A program made the position numbers and the translations under genes. The notes under the pieces are model-generated. The model saw nothing but the letters and a program-made list of their open reading frames with translations. It was not told the DNA's origin and made no database searches. Of a stretch of 64,000 nt of DNA, positions 21,757 to 38,993 are shown in pieces. Source of the stretch: Microbacter margulisiae. Lineage in GTDB: Bacteria; Bacteroidota; Bacteroidia; Bacteroidales; Paludibacteraceae. Where the stretch lies: NCBI RefSeq assembly GCF_014192515.1, contig NZ_JACHYB010000002.1, positions 186,001 through 250,000 on the forward strand, read 5' to 3'. How positions within the stretch are numbered: the stretch's first letter is position 1; every line of letters starts with the position of its first letter.

Positions 21757-22107
21757 AGAAAGCAGGTCGGCTTGTCGCTTCGTAATGCGAAGAGGAAAGT
21801 CCGGGCAACACAGAGCATCATATTTCCTAACAGGAAGCTGTTTGCAAAAGCAGAGTAACGTAACAGAAAACAACCGTCCCTAAGCGGGATAAGGGTGAAA
21901 AGGCGAGGTAAGAGCTCACCGGCATTCATGGCAACATGAGTGGCCGTACGTCTTATGAGTTGCAAGGCCATGTAAACCAACGATTGAGGATTGCTCGTCC
22001 AATGTTGGAGGGTAGGCCGCTTGAGATTGTTGGCAACAACAATCCTAGATAAATGACAGGCATTCTGCATAGCAGAAGACAGAACCCGGCTTATAGACCT
22101 GCTTTTT
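21757..22107 (+). ncRNA. rnpB: RNase P RNA, bacterial class A
   Basis: RNA subunit of RNase P, which trims the 5' ends of tRNA precursors. The two universal blocks are present: 'GAGGAAAGTCCGGGC' near the 5' end (about 21790-21805), and the matching 3' block 'ACAGAACCCGGCTTATAG' (about 22079-22096). Helix P1 is formed by AAAGCAGGTC (21759-21768) and GACCTGCTTT (22096-22105). The central part has the expected GC-rich specificity domain. A TATCTTTG box at 21744-21751 ends about six bases before the predicted 5' end, fixing the start. Ends are accurate to a few bases. Confidence 0.95.
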
Positions 22108-22155
22108 ATATAACTAATTTTCTATGCATCACAAACATTATTTATCCGTATCAAA

Positions 22156-27206: not shown

Positions 27207-27914
27207 TTACAATGCAAAATGGGAGCCATTCTGCACTAACGCGTTATATTTGTCATAATCAAAACGGTAGTAAAAGGCACCTCGCTTGGAATTGCTCTTG
27301 TCTTTTTCCTCCGTTTTCTCAAAAATATCCATTGCCAGCACTTTTTTCCGGAAATTTCGCTTGTCAAGCGTTTCGCCCAAAATGGCTTCATAGAGAGATT
27401 GTAATTGCGGCAATGTAAAATATTGCGGCAACAGGTTGAATCCGATCGGTTCTACGGCAGCCTTGCGTTTTAGTTGCTTCCATGCCATCATCACCATGAT
27501 ATTATGATCGAAAATCAATGCCGGGATATCGTTCATTGGAACCCAAACCGCGTTATGACTATCTGCTAATTCCTTATTATAGTCATCACTGTTGATAAGT
27601 GCATAATATGCGGCAGAAAGTACCCTTTCACCGGGATCACGATCTACTTCTCCGAAGATCCCAATCTGCTCCATAAAAACATTTTCTAAACCCGTCAACT
27701 CCTGCAACACGCGCTCGGCGGCAGCATCAATACTTTCTCCCTTATTGAGAAAGCCACCCATCAATGAAAGCTCGCCTATGCATGGATCAAACCGCCGTCT
27801 GATCAATAATAGCTTTAACTCGTCTTCGTGAAATCCAAAAATGATACAGTCGACCGCCACATAAAAGCGATCCTTATTTTCGTAATAATTTCTTACTCCT
27901 TCGTTTTCAACCAT
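27207..27914 (-). CDS. araR: AraR, NrtR-type (Nudix plus winged helix) arabinose regulator
   Basis: 235 aa. The N-terminal Nudix fold (about residues 12-145) has a degenerate Nudix box: 'GGFLNKGESIDAAAERVLQELTGLE' keeps the shape but ends R-x-x-x-E-L-T rather than the catalytic REUXEE, as expected for a sensor rather than a hydrolase. The C-terminal winged helix ('YFTLPQLQSLYEAILGETLDKRNFRKKVLAMDIFEKT') is the NrtR-type DNA-binding domain. In Bacteroides thetaiotaomicron a protein of this architecture is AraR, a repressor released by L-arabinose. The ATG at 27914 is preferred over the TTG at 27923. Its position at the head of araD-araA supports autoregulation of the operon. Confidence 0.88.
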   Translation of the reverse strand: MVENEGVRNYYENKDRFYVAVDCIIFGFHEDELKLLLIRRRFDPCIGELSLMGGFLNKGESIDAAAERVLQELTGLENVFMEQIGIFGEVDRDPGERVLSAAYYALINSDDYNKELADSHNAVWVPMNDIPALIFDHNIMVMMAWKQLKRKAAVEPIGFNLLPQYFTLPQLQSLYEAILGETLDKRNFRKKVLAMDIFEKTEEKDKSNSKRGAFYYRFDYDKYNALVQNGSHFAL

Positions 27915-27949
27915 AACATACAATTTACCACGTAAACTTTATTTTAAAC

Positions 27950-27979
27950 CAAAGTTACACAAACTACTTGTATGTAAAG
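27950..27979 (-). promoter_or_regulatory. ara operon promoter with candidate AraR operator
   Basis: TAACTTTG (27957-27950, minus strand) is a good -7 box. Immediately upstream, 27959-27975 is an imperfect palindrome of the form ACAnACnnnnnGTnTGT, filling the space to the -33 region (27979-27976). A repressor bound there would block RNA polymerase. That AraR is the binder is inference from position. Confidence 0.6.
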
Positions 27980-28477
27980 TATTAAATGTTACTATTGGGA
28001 TGAAATAAATCGTCTGTCCGGATGCCTGAATTAATGGGTGTAAAAATAACACTTATTTCACACCAATGTCAAACTAATTATATGTTATGCAACATAAAAG
28101 TAAATAATTCATTTCGTTCTTACGGTCAACATAAATTTTACATCATCAAAAGAAAGGAACCCAAAGAAAAAAACAACAGCAGGAATCTGTCATTAATCAT
28201 ATTGTGAAAATTATCAAGTATAAGGACTAATGTCACATCAACCACGAGCCCATACCTATGTATAAAATACATTTTAACCCCGATACTGTATTTTTCAGTT
28301 TAGATTTCTCCAACACTCTCCAACAGACAAAATAATATATATAAACATTTACCGCTTACAGATTAAAAGACACACAAACCGTATATTTCTTATATTTAAC
28401 CATATAACAAAATACAATCAGAATTATTGTTTATAACACATTCAAGATATTGATTATCTTAGACCTGAAACTTTTAT
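27980..28477. other. AT-rich intergenic region upstream of the ara operon
   Basis: About 500 bp with no believable gene: the one plus-strand frame here (28022-28207) has no start context, no promoter and no family resemblance. No tRNA or terminator was seen. Confidence 0.5.
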
Positions 28478-28478
28478 T

Positions 28479-28576
28479 GTCCCCGGTATCTTTTCTCTTT
28501 ACCTTGGTAATTATTCCTTTTACCAGGGTAACGCCTTCTGTTACCCCGGTAACTTTTCTTTTAGCGGGCGCTAAAA
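28479..28576. repeat. Array of palindromes spaced exactly 21 bp apart
   Basis: Three copies of TTACC-nn-GGTAA at 28499-28510 (nn TT), 28520-28531 (AG) and 28541-28552 (CC), then an 18-bp palindrome TTTTAGCG-GG-CGCTAAAA at 28559-28576. A degenerate member (CC-CC-GG followed by TA) is centred at 28483.5. The centres are 28483.5, 28504.5, 28525.5, 28546.5 and 28567.5, all 21 bp apart, or two helical turns. The spacers are not repeated, so the palindromes themselves appear to be under selection. It looks like an operator array on one face of the helix; alternatively, as RNA, the GGTAA of one unit can pair with the TTACC of the next. Confidence 0.85.
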
Positions 28577-28577
28577 C

Positions 28578-28851
28578 GGGTCTATTCAATAAGCTGAATC
28601 AAGTTCTTTATGAGTTTGCTCTTCATTCGATTCAATTTGGTGTTTAGGCTTTGCTTTATTGTGGTTAGGATCTCACATTAAAGAAATCTGTTTTTGCTAA
28701 TTCTTATCAGCCACTATTGCTGTAGATGCTCAAAGAAATAGGTTTTGCGTGCCATTGCATTTTTAACATGAAAAAATTGCAAATGCCTGTTTTTTGTGCG
28801 TAACTTTTGCACAATAAATTTTGTATGCACTTTGTTACTTTCAGATGAAAC
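28578..28851. other. Intergenic region between the palindrome array and the kinase-like gene
   Basis: About 275 bp. It contains AT-rich DNA with near-matches to a -7 box (TAAATTTTG at 28815-28823, preceded by TTTG at 28793-28796), one base too long for the consensus. It presumably holds the promoter of the gene at 28867. Confidence 0.4.
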
Positions 28852-28866
28852 ATGGAGGGACACCTT

Positions 28867-29505
28867 ATGAAACCAAATCAGCCTTTAATCATTACCATCA
28901 GCCGACAGATAGGTTCTGGTGGGGCGTATATCGGACAACAGATTGCAAGGTACTTTGACATCCTGTATGCCGATCGCGAAATTATATCCGAAACAGCACA
29001 ACGGTTTTCAATTCATCCCAAAGAAATTGCACATCGTGATGAAAAAATTATTTCTGCATGGGAAGCATTTATGCAAGCTATTACACGTAACCCTGACCGT
29101 ATTGAGTTCAGTCCGTTTCCTCCAACAGACAAAGAGCTATTTAAAGCCGAAAGCGAAGTAATTGAACGATTAGCAACCGAACGTTCGGCCGTAATCATGG
29201 GTCGGTGTGGTTCGTATATCCTTCGCCAACACCCGAATCATATCAGCATTTTCTTACATGCAAGCAACGTTTTTCGGATAAAACATCTTTGCGAAGTACA
29301 CAACATGTCGGAAATCAGAGCACAAAAAACAATCGCCGAATATGATAAAGACAGAGGAGCCTACATACACCAGTTCACCGGACTGAACTGGACGGATGCC
29401 ACCCAATATAATCTTACATTCAGAACGGATATTCTCGGACTGGAGACCAGTGCCAAGGAAATTATAAATTTTATAGAAACGACACTGGCGAAAAAAGAGC
29501 TATAA
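28867..29505 (+). CDS. Cytidylate kinase-like family protein
   Basis: 212 aa, P-loop NTPase of the cytidylate-kinase-like type (PF13189-like). 'LIITISRQIGSGGAYIGQQIARYF' is the altered Walker A region of this family, 'YADREIISETAQRFSI' and 'VIMGRCGSYIL' follow, and 'EYDKDRGAYIHQFTGLNWTDATQYNLTFRTDILG' resembles the lid and C-terminal region of CMP kinases. The natural substrate of this family is not known to me. The ATG at 28867 is preceded at short distance by GGAGG, so it is chosen over the in-frame ATG at 28852. It is a single gene downstream of the 21-bp-phased palindrome array. Confidence 0.85.
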   Translation: MKPNQPLIITISRQIGSGGAYIGQQIARYFDILYADREIISETAQRFSIHPKEIAHRDEKIISAWEAFMQAITRNPDRIEFSPFPPTDKELFKAESEVIERLATERSAVIMGRCGSYILRQHPNHISIFLHASNVFRIKHLCEVHNMSEIRAQKTIAEYDKDRGAYIHQFTGLNWTDATQYNLTFRTDILGLETSAKEIINFIETTLAKKEL

Positions 29506-37467: not shown

Positions 37468-37857
37468 ATGGAAAAAGAGACAGAATTAAAGTCAGCGGAA
37501 CATCAGTTGTTGGAGTTAATATTGCCAGAAGGGATTCTGGAGTATTTTGAAATAAAATCAGTTAGGAACATTGGGATAGGTTATGCGGTTTATCTTGAAG
37601 AAAAGCCTGATATTCCTTCAGAGTATGCAGGAGAACCTCTTCGTTGTCATGGCTTTCATCAGGAACAAACCATACATGATTTTCCAATACGAGGAAAGGT
37701 ATTTGATTTGAAGATTAAGTGTCGAAGGTGGTTGAATGCCAATACAAACCAAGTGGTTAGCCGAAATTGGGAACTTACGGCAAAAGGAACGCGATTTACA
37801 CAGGAATTCGCGGCTTTTTTAAAAGAATTACCTGGATACTCATCCCATAAGTGCTAA
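37468..37857 (+). CDS. ISAon1-type transposase N-terminal region protein
   Basis: 129 aa. It corresponds to the separately encoded N-terminal part of ISAon1-family transposases: 'YFEIKSVRNIGIGYAVYLEEKP', a proline-rich loop, and a short basic region with 'KVFDLKIKCRRWLN', which in ISL3-like enzymes precedes the DDE core and helps bind the ends. It ends 'SSHKC' at a TAA (37855-37857). The sequence in the next frame continues the protein family, so a frameshift into the second frame is likely. Confidence 0.85.
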   Translation: MEKETELKSAEHQLLELILPEGILEYFEIKSVRNIGIGYAVYLEEKPDIPSEYAGEPLRCHGFHQEQTIHDFPIRGKVFDLKIKCRRWLNANTNQVVSRNWELTAKGTRFTQEFAAFLKELPGYSSHKC

Positions 37858-37867
37858 ATCCCTTGCA

Positions 37868-38815
37868 GTGGATTATTATCTGGATGGCAAGCAGTTGCAA
37901 GAGCAATACAAGGACTATCTGAGTGATTATCATCAGTGGGATCAAAAATCTCATGCTCACCAATGGCTGCTTTATCCGGATAATGTAGGCCGTTTCTTAA
38001 GTATAGATGAAACCAGCTTGTCTAACGGAGAACTATATACTATTGTCACCAACAAAGCGGCAAAAGGAGGTAAAGGAACCATTGTTGCTATGGTTCGGGG
38101 AACTAAGGCAGAGGATATTGTCGCGGTTCTCAACAAGCTGCCAAAGCGTGTCAGGTGGAAAGTCCGGGAAGTTACCATGGATATGGCAGCCAATATGGAA
38201 TACGTGATCAAAATTTGCTTTCCCCAAGCCGGTAGAGTGACCGACAGGTTTCATGTTCAACAGTTGGCTTATGATGCCGTTCAGGAACTCAGAATTAAAC
38301 ATCGTTGGAATGCACTGGACAGGGAAACGATCGATATGGCATTAGCGAAAGCCTGCGGAAGGAAATACAATCCACCGGTTCTGGCAAACGGAGACACTCT
38401 CAAGCAACTACTGGCGCGTAGCAGATATTTGTTGTTTAAGAAACCCACAGCATGGACATATTCTCAGAAAACAAGAGCTGAAATTCTTTTTGAACTGTAT
38501 CCTGACCTAAAGAAAGCATATCATTTTTCCTTGCAATTGGGGGCTATTTACCATCAAACAAAAGACAAAGGAGTAGCTTTTGCTAAACTGGCACAGTGGT
38601 ATGATAGGGTTGATAACTCAGGTATTTTGTCATTTGGAAGCATCACCAGAACCATTCAATCACATTATTTGACAATCCTGAATTATTTTAATCACAGAAG
38701 TACAAATGCTTCTGCAGAATCATTCAATGCCAAAATCAAAGCTTTTAGGGCATCTTTCAGAGGCGTGAGAGATGTGAATTTTTTCCTTTTCAGACTAACA
38801 AAAATTTATGCTTAA
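37868..38815 (+). CDS. ISAon1-type transposase, catalytic part
   Basis: 315 aa from a GTG; the frame is open from 37823 with no ATG before it. DDE transposase (DDE_Tnp_ISL3 type): first Asp in 'FLSIDETSLSNGELY', second in 'RVTDRFHVQQLAYDAVQ', Glu in 'NASAESFNAKIKAFR'. The residues just upstream of the GTG in this frame ('YLDTHPISAKSLA') look like transposase sequence, which argues for synthesis as a fusion by a +1 (or -2) frameshift between 37823 and 37857 rather than a separate start. Confidence 0.88.
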   Translation: MDYYLDGKQLQEQYKDYLSDYHQWDQKSHAHQWLLYPDNVGRFLSIDETSLSNGELYTIVTNKAAKGGKGTIVAMVRGTKAEDIVAVLNKLPKRVRWKVREVTMDMAANMEYVIKICFPQAGRVTDRFHVQQLAYDAVQELRIKHRWNALDRETIDMALAKACGRKYNPPVLANGDTLKQLLARSRYLLFKKPTAWTYSQKTRAEILFELYPDLKKAYHFSLQLGAIYHQTKDKGVAFAKLAQWYDRVDNSGILSFGSITRTIQSHYLTILNYFNHRSTNASAESFNAKIKAFRASFRGVRDVNFFLFRLTKIYA

Positions 38816-38908: not shown

Positions 38909-38919
38909 AAAATATTTTG

Positions 38920-38993
38920 CGGTATGGACGGGACTCGAACCCGCGACCCCCTGCGTGACAGGCAGGTATTCTAACCAGCTGAACTACCACACC
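38920..38993 (-). tRNA. tRNA-Asp (GTC)
   Basis: 74 nt cloverleaf on the minus strand. The acceptor GGTGTGG pairs with CCATACC, with a G discriminator base. The D arm contains 'AGCTGGTTAGA', the anticodon stem CCTGC/GCAGG carries the loop with GTC, and the T arm is 'GCGGGTTCGAGTCCCGT'. CCA is not encoded. It is a single tRNA gene with a consensus promoter and a strong terminator. Confidence 0.97.

Follow-up and report, generated by a model that had tools for sequence, protein, structure and literature searches.

A palindromic array with a 21-bp period beside a leftover IS256/Mutator-type transposon end in Microbacter margulisiae

The window array and its surroundings

The window, the whole 64-kb stretch of DNA analysed, belongs to a genome (G000) of 3.56 Mb in two contigs. 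Positions 27923 to 28852 are intergenic, with the gene for an AraR-like Nudix regulator on one side and that for a cytidylate-kinase-like protein on the other, in keeping with the preliminary description of the region as gene-poor. The array found there (A1; Table 1) contains three exact copies of the palindrome TTACCNNGGTAA, centred at 28504.5, 28525.5 and 28546.5, a palindrome TTTTAGCGGGCGCTAAAA centred at 28567.5 and a degenerate unit, GTCC-CC-GGTA, centred at 28483.5. All steps from unit to unit are 21 bp, and the palindromes, centres and exact phasing claimed in the preliminary description were all recovered at the correct coordinates. In a self-comparison of the window (lags 10-60), this was the sole array at an identity of at least 0.6 (28468-28566, lag 21, 0.63) and no array was found at 0.65; it is also absent from the output of Tandem Repeats Finder. 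The array is beyond chance, the spaced pair TACCNNGGTA-N11-TACCNNGGTA being present 10 times in the genome versus 0 times for the backward control.

Table 1. Coordinates of the window array, its flanks and neighbours, and the related arrays of the same genome.
Feature	Position	Strand	Basis or remark
Neighbour outside the array: AraR-like Nudix/winged-helix regulator	27207..27923	-	PF21906, PF19368, PF00293
Left flank common to the window array (A1) and the paralogous array A2 (TTATAACA..AAACT)	28431..28472	+	blastn of the window against L011
Unit 1, degenerate: GTCCCCGGTA	28473..28493	+	in 21-bp register
Unit 2, palindrome TTACC-TT-GGTAA at 28499-28510	28494..28514	+	
Unit 3, palindrome TTACC-AG-GGTAA at 28520-28531	28515..28535	+	
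Unit 4, palindrome TTACC-CC-GGTAA at 28541-28552	28536..28556	+	
Unit 5, palindrome TTTTAGCG-GG-CGCTAAAA at 28559-28576; both arms changed relative to units 2-4	28557..28577	+	
IS256/Mutator-type terminal inverted repeat stub (GGGTCTATTCAATAAGCTG), tip towards the array	28578..28596	+	tip sequence match
Right flank common to the window array and A2 (AATCAAGTTCTTTATGAG..GTGTTTAGGC), without transposase	28597..28651	+	near-identical in blastn
Neighbour outside the array: cytidylate-kinase-like protein	28852..29505	+	PF13189
Related array A2, 15 units	about C1:1742533-1742847		other contig than the window
Related array A3	C1:538108-538359		
Related array A4	C1:99057-99140		

Related arrays and distribution of the palindrome

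The window genome holds three further related arrays, A2, A3 and A4, and all six pairs among A1-A4 match by blastn at E 1e-3 or better. A1 and A2 (L011) are identical at 129 of 164 positions over window 28407-28568 (blastn) and are paralogous across the array and both of its flanks; the other loci of the group have different neighbours. Both carry a TTTTAGC..GCTAAAA unit on the same side, followed in A2 by one more degenerate unit. The last unit of the window array, to which a different core had been ascribed, does differ in its arms from units 2-4 but is not unique, a unit of its type standing on the same side of A2. In A2, of which 13 units were compared, the arms TTACC and GGTA hardly vary, and the most variable positions are the two centre bases and some spacer columns. 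Nine of the 12 copies of TTACCNNGGTAA in the window genome lie within two arrays.

Outside this genome the motif is scarce at the same spacing. The preliminary description called for a search of related Bacteroidota. Among 395 genomes sampled from the phylum, nine others have one TACCNNGGTA pair at 13-40 bp, with just one pair at exactly 21, and TACCNNGGTA pairs at 21-bp spacing are absent from seven further members of the genus. Searching 200 family genomes with the whole window element returned, outside the window genome, just short matches in 13 genomes (E 7e-4 to 0.01). The locus itself showed no synteny in the form of an araR neighbour by tblastn in 11 other kinase-gene loci of the genus, within flanks of up to 1.5 kb. 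Scanning across phyla for three copies of TACCNNGGTA in 21-bp steps yielded 23 stretches, spread over many phyla, all selected by TACCNNGGTA itself and some of them putatively coding (L070, L072), and these are excluded from all counts. A virus origin was considered and rejected: eight viral stretches have TACCNNGGTA pairs at 21 bp, and at least 120 stretches were found at free spacing, with spacings spread by eye. Two Hormoscilla contigs (L061, L065) carry two 21-bp arrays with similar units and a common right-hand flank, AATACTTCAAGGGATACAACGG, which may be a cyanobacterial counterpart of this arrangement with a different element end.

A transposon end beside the array

Directly to the right of the window array lies GGGTCTATTCAATAA, present in seven copies in the window genome (pattern search, at most one mismatch); a blastn comparison of the window element with its own genome gave three 16-base matches, all at one query position. 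At locus L246 of another genome (G533), an element encoding a Transposase_mut protein of 403 aa (PF00872, E 1.9e-105) carries the tip motif at either end, and because the motif forms both ends of this element, GGGTCTATTCAATAA was identified as an IS256/Mutator-type terminal inverted repeat with its G-rich tip outermost. The tip sequence GGGTCTATTCAATAAACTGTGTCA bounds the intact L246 element. The first 15 bases of the window stub are identical to the tip of the intact Transposase_mut element, and 18 of 19 match the tip consensus. No transposase was detected inside the window stub within 1.5 kb by tblastn with two IS256-type queries and one IS4-type query, and a complete IS256/Mutator-type element is absent from the locus, which holds a stub only.

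Four of the seven tip loci of the window genome, taken at 3 kb each, contain a period-21 array: L213, L216 (the window locus), L217 and L219. The four arrays visibly differ in sequence, and that of L217 lies ~650 bases away from the tip. Two further loci of this genome (L335, L336) have identical sequence around a tip variant, GGGCCTATTGAATAAACTGTGTCA, with a period-63 array outside and a second tip-like piece between. Head-to-tail copies of tip fragments, ~10 and 21-23 bases long, occur at or near the array junctions of L292, L293, L254, L248, L249, L250 and L218, as though old tips had been the target of new insertions spaced by fixed helical distances.

Association of tips and arrays across the family

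The 19-base tip was found in 18 of the 200 sampled family genomes, and the backward control gave 0 matches; the sampled genomes are species representatives, many of them drafts, and the survey covers one type of IS end. The 78 raw matches were reduced to 58 distinct sites and then to 56 clusters, a list composed of 55 family-search matches (two at one place merged) and two sites from the pattern search of the window genome. An array was called where the DNA was periodic at an identity of at least 0.69 within 300 bases of the tip (lags 12-70). On this definition, 34 of the 56 sites have a periodic array outside the tip, and 4 have one inside it among the 45 with at least 150 bases visible on that side. 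The lags outside the tip are 21 (12 sites), 42 (12), 62 (2) and 63 (8), with no other lag among 12-70. Among random 300-mers, 18 of 1500 from the window genome and 19 of 1499 from G541 were periodic, their lags being scattered between 12 and 51; these backgrounds sample 400 kb of each genome, the G541 stretches being hand-picked at regular steps and without its five tip sites. Within the window genome just three of the seven tip sites reach the cut-off, the window array barely (0.69).

Many of the arrays touch the tip. By a strict edge test, 12 of the 31 arrays that could be delimited reach to within one base of it and 15 to within 8, and a coarser window test places 19 of the 31 within one base, a count that takes in L248 and L249 with ~20 bases of old tip pieces between. 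Arrays on both sides of a tip occur just at L242 and L244, where inside and outside match no better than E 0.039. An all-versus-all comparison of 37 arrays (the 31, A2-A4 and three later ones) gave 13 matching pairs out of 666 at E 1e-3, namely six among A1-A4, L249/L298, L242/L297, L258/L261 and four weaker ones. With so few matching pairs the array sequences are mostly unrelated, as expected if arrays arise mostly from local DNA; the unit families shared by separate loci (L249/L298, L242/L297, L258/L261 and A1-A4) indicate that not every array is purely local in origin. Across the order, five of the 393 genomes searched contain the 24-base tip. Four tip sites lie outside both the window genome and the family; a 21/42 array lies directly outside the tip at L328 and L329 and is absent from L330 and L332.

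The window array turns out to be a member of a little-noticed class of arrays at leftover IS256-type ends, and the association suggests a DNA-level process that links transposon ends and 21-base repeats, not a switch for neighbouring genes. Titles and abstracts among the matches listed in our literature search, most subscription papers being outside its scope, contained no description of 21-bp arrays at IS ends.

VNTR minisatellites likewise consist of tandem units and differ in copy number between loci. It is improbable that the arrays are plain minisatellites of this kind, ordinary tandem repeats that come near transposon ends through a common tolerance of intergenic space. Few genomes carry arrays, those in the loci read are intergenic, and the sampled stretches also show other periods (e.g. 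14, 16, 51), all of which such an origin would accommodate; the one-sided and often zero-gap abutment would not be expected from it, nor would the restriction to multiples of ~21 at tips (34 of 56 sites, compared with 1.2% of random segments). The arrays here further differ from VNTRs in their frequent paired-arm dyads, their period of about two helix turns and their one-sided contact with a transposon end. A separate repeat in the window genome (L286:6637-9412) has a lag of 51 bp and occurs in several copies ~330 bases apart, forming a larger repeat.

Symmetry, phasing and coding potential

Symmetry, phase, skew and coding were tested on the 31 delimited arrays, and covariation on a set of 33 made up of 30 of these and A1-A3. 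Dyad symmetry reached p<0.05 in 13 of 31 arrays, the window array included, when columns were permuted (combined p 6e-10), and arm pairing exceeded that of shuffles in 15 of 33 when letters were shuffled within columns and the dyad was re-chosen each time (combined p 1e-10). About half of the arrays had no significant symmetry by column permutation (18 of 31) or arm covariation (18 of 33). Since the units within an array are copies of one another, the shuffle p-values overstate independence, and the direct evidence of symmetry upkeep is the occurrence of unit types with paired changes, e.g. in L299, L292, L289 and the window.

The arms are complementary within units and between adjacent units, so that a transcribed array could in principle fold into alternative hairpins, as had been proposed for the window array. 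We regard such an RNA element as extremely improbable. Two-base loops are unfavourable in RNA, no Rfam family matched at the gathering threshold (the window contains RNase P and tRNA only), and the 31 arrays are not consistently skewed between strands with respect to the tip. Nor is there a wobble signature: mismatches in the arms of the 11 strongly symmetric arrays number 31 for G-T versus 42 for A-C, and the similarity of these counts favours DNA rather than RNA. The proposal of RNA hairpins was therefore dropped for want of both an Rfam match and an excess of G-T over A-C.

A repeat encoding a heptapeptide was also rejected, as there is no third-codon-position signal and 11 of the 31 arrays lack an open frame. 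A 3-base signal (p<0.05) was seen in 1 of 27 arrays, about the number expected by chance. In the window array two of the six frames are stop-free, and most of the A2 open frame, used as a protein query, retrieved 207 candidates, all of them with E values above 10. Arrays of period 41 with no open frame across them occur in G541 (L318:3729-3929, L319:5705-5937, L325:9270-9565) and in the window genome (L280:18077-18612), with no matching transposon tip within 120 bases. Period 41 is not a multiple of 3, and the phasing therefore looks helical rather than codon-based; two, four and six helical turns account for periods of 21, 41, 42 and 62-63 better than codons do. Some of the period-41 arrays look as if half units of 20 and of 21 bases alternated in them.

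Phasing by two helical turns had originally been read as what cooperative binding of a dimeric protein would produce. The dyad symmetry is genuine and kept by paired arm changes (15 of 33), and the period is helical; what lacks support is a cooperative operator at this locus. It is quite improbable that a dimeric regulator, such as the adjacent AraR-like protein, binds the array on one DNA face and controls arabinose or kinase genes. Such a role would account for the dyads, the 21-bp phasing and the Nudix/winged-helix regulator gene that adjoins the array, yet the array is upstream of both genes by some distance, ~550 bp for the regulator and ~275 bp for the kinase, related units occur at three other loci with different neighbours, and the same phasing recurs with other sequences beside unrelated genes, the common factor being an IS256-type end. 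The AraR of Bacteroides, as summarised in PMC4666351, recognises a 21-bp semipalindrome in paired sites separated by 3 bp or 42 nt, with 25 bp covered by the dimer; dimers placed every 21 bp would fit this poorly. A semipalindromic motif of 21 bp in tandem sites is common to those operators and the window array, which the regulator gene adjoins; in the same summary the operators differ in spacing (3 bp or 42 nt) and footprint (25 bp), and many arrays of the present class lie beside other genes (PMC4666351). An AraR operator cluster was thus rejected for the 12-base palindromes stepped 21 centre to centre ~550 bp from the regulator start, with spacing, footprint and recurrence all misfitting. 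Phased palindromes in intergenic DNA are thus no evidence of an operator when taken alone.

Stubs and intact elements

At 29 of the 31 arrays, 22 to 67 bases resemble known element ends, a range that includes a few chance matches, and other DNA follows; as for the other two, L306 stays in the element to the end of the contig and L235 has just 32 bases left on the contig. The DNA inside the stubs apparently holds ordinary chromosomal genes, including nth, dnaX, recQ and comM (read from translations). Transposase pieces were detected by tblastn inside nine of the 51 sites of the first list: L219, L246 twice, L250 twice, L254 twice, L260 and L262. In a post hoc sorting of the 56 sites, done after the data had been seen, arrays accompany 30 of 40 stubs or truncated ends and 4 of 16 intact, long or contig-broken elements (L235, L264, L306 and L369). 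Some 20-50 bases separate the array from the tip in L306, L235 and L369, and the element of L264 lies behind an older 10-base tip piece that adjoins the array. The intact or near-intact elements visible at length (L246/L259 at both ends, L260 and L262) are without an array.

One locus, downstream of nth, was compared among relatives. Array and tip are present in 1 of 30 fetched loci, the query's own; within 1500 bases the other 29, two of which offered just 110 and 725 bases to inspect, had no tip (at most 4 mismatches) and no array with a lag that is a multiple of 21, and four of them showed other lags (43, 49, 16 and 16). No insertion boundary could be placed: by blast the next gene is common to one of the 29 relatives (L344), whose intergenic DNA does not align. 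As just L344 shares the next gene, the comparison is weak evidence for joint gain of array and tip.

Origin of the arrays

The class is characterised by its period, its one-sided position, sequences that differ between loci, paired-arm dyads in about half of the arrays and no coding signal; the causal order of tip and array is unproven. Probably one of two links between them holds, the end having come first or the array having come first. Our best explanation, which we hold tentatively and at somewhat less than even confidence, is that the window array is non-coding repeat DNA of a two-turn phased class on the outer side of IS256/Mutator-type ends, and that the end came first. An end left in place may still be acted on by transposase supplied from elsewhere, or by break repair at its tip. 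Host DNA next to it would then be duplicated repeatedly in steps of ~21 bp, a size proposed to follow from the need for both reacting sites to be on one helix face, and hairpin-templated correction might subsequently keep the units palindromic. An array formed in this manner would have no regulatory role for the neighbouring genes. Precedence of the end explains why the arrays are one-sided, often leave no gap, are mostly unrelated in sequence and are in excess at stubs. The full mechanism, in which a solo IS256-type end drives two-turn duplication of neighbouring DNA with hairpin-templated symmetrisation as an undescribed mutational machine that yields palindromic satellite DNA, specific to each locus and phased at 21 bp, in Bacteroidota, is unlikely.

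Growth at the tip is not visible in the arrays. Mean lag identity by fifths, from the far end to the tip, is 0.66, 0.82, 0.85, 0.85 and 0.75 (23 arrays), so the units on the tip side are no more alike than those in mid-array; in 18 of 23 arrays the fifth nearest the tip has the higher identity of the two end fifths, a comparison in which the cut-off defines where the far fifth ends. Some 21/42 arrays in G541 (L314:10240, L315 and L317), each of which keeps one or two open frames, have no recognisable tip. One array of this genome without an IS256-type tip (L317:5126-5457, 21 bp) is flanked by eye by a short inverted repeat, GTCGCACTCC.. / ..GGAGTGCGAC, like a miniature element.

The opposite order, in which 21-bp palindromic arrays arise by ordinary slippage and serve, in the way that REP palindromes do for several IS families, as preferred landing zones for IS256-type elements whose later loss leaves a stub, is somewhat unlikely. 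It is favoured by the tipless arrays (L314:10240, L315, L317), by the presence of 4 of 16 intact-like elements near arrays, compared with 1.2% of random segments and in some cases some tens of bases off, and by the intact-like L264, which sits behind the older 10-base tip piece adjoining its array. There is also a published precedent, an IS256-family element, ISRm5, which is near or adjacent to REP in five of seven copies by the account in PMC1525189. Landing inside an array should, however, often leave the same array on both sides, and just two of 45 sites are two-sided (L242, L244), with matches at E 0.039 or weaker. In 13 arrays the tip does not clearly favour any phase with respect to the palindrome centre (Rayleigh R 0.38, given without a p-value), and the elements seen intact or nearly so at length (L246/L259 at both ends, L260, L262) lack an array.

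The association, if real, would provide a concrete origin for some species-specific bacterial minisatellites, with a period tied to DNA geometry and transposon ends instead of codons. The origin of intergenic tandem repeats would then become testable with one transposase, a 25-bp end and a neutral flank.

Comparison with known systems

The closest precedent we found is ISRm5 beside REP palindromes, classed as a type 2 IS-REP association in the account of Tobes and Pareja 2006 (PMC1525189). As described there, an IS256-family element is near or adjacent to short extragenic palindromes, as here, and the junction palindrome is unbroken (PMC1525189). The REPs of that account are dispersed and species-typical, while the present arrays mostly have their own tandem sequence and a fixed 21-bp phase and mostly adjoin stubs (PMC1525189). 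The palindromes mobilised by REP/RAYT systems are, as outlined in PMC3733652, small, extragenic and non-coding like those studied here, from which they differ in that the window units are tandem, head to tail, with a 21-bp period. No GTAG/CGTC tag was seen by eye in the window unit. Assignment to the REP/BIME class was rejected, the array not being one short palindrome family dispersed in many copies (TTACCNNGGTAA occurs 12 times, 9 of them in two arrays). IS1272, an IS that inserts by replacing inverted repeats, resembles the present case in targeting palindromic DNA without target duplications (PMC5678879, abstract). It is another IS without a tandem phased array, and palindrome replacement is a feature of IS1272 (PMC5678879, abstract). 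Palindromes thus appear as transposon targets or passengers in both the IS1272 report and the REP survey, the abstracts of which contain no fixed-phase, locus-specific tandem arrays (PMC5678879, PMC3733652). IS256/Mutator insertion sequences have the same tip, GGGTCTATTCAATAAACTGTGTCA; at the arrays usually just ~20 to 67 bases of one end remain. A CRISPR array was rejected as well, there being no constant repeat with unique spacers of CRISPR size; the units are a 12-base palindrome with a variable centre and 9-base spacers.

Other features of the window

The window also contains an ordinary bacterial class A RNase P RNA gene at 21759-22109 (Rfam), and two adjacent transposase-like frames, recognised by eye at 37468-38815 and 38919-38993, lie beside a tRNA-Asp gene.
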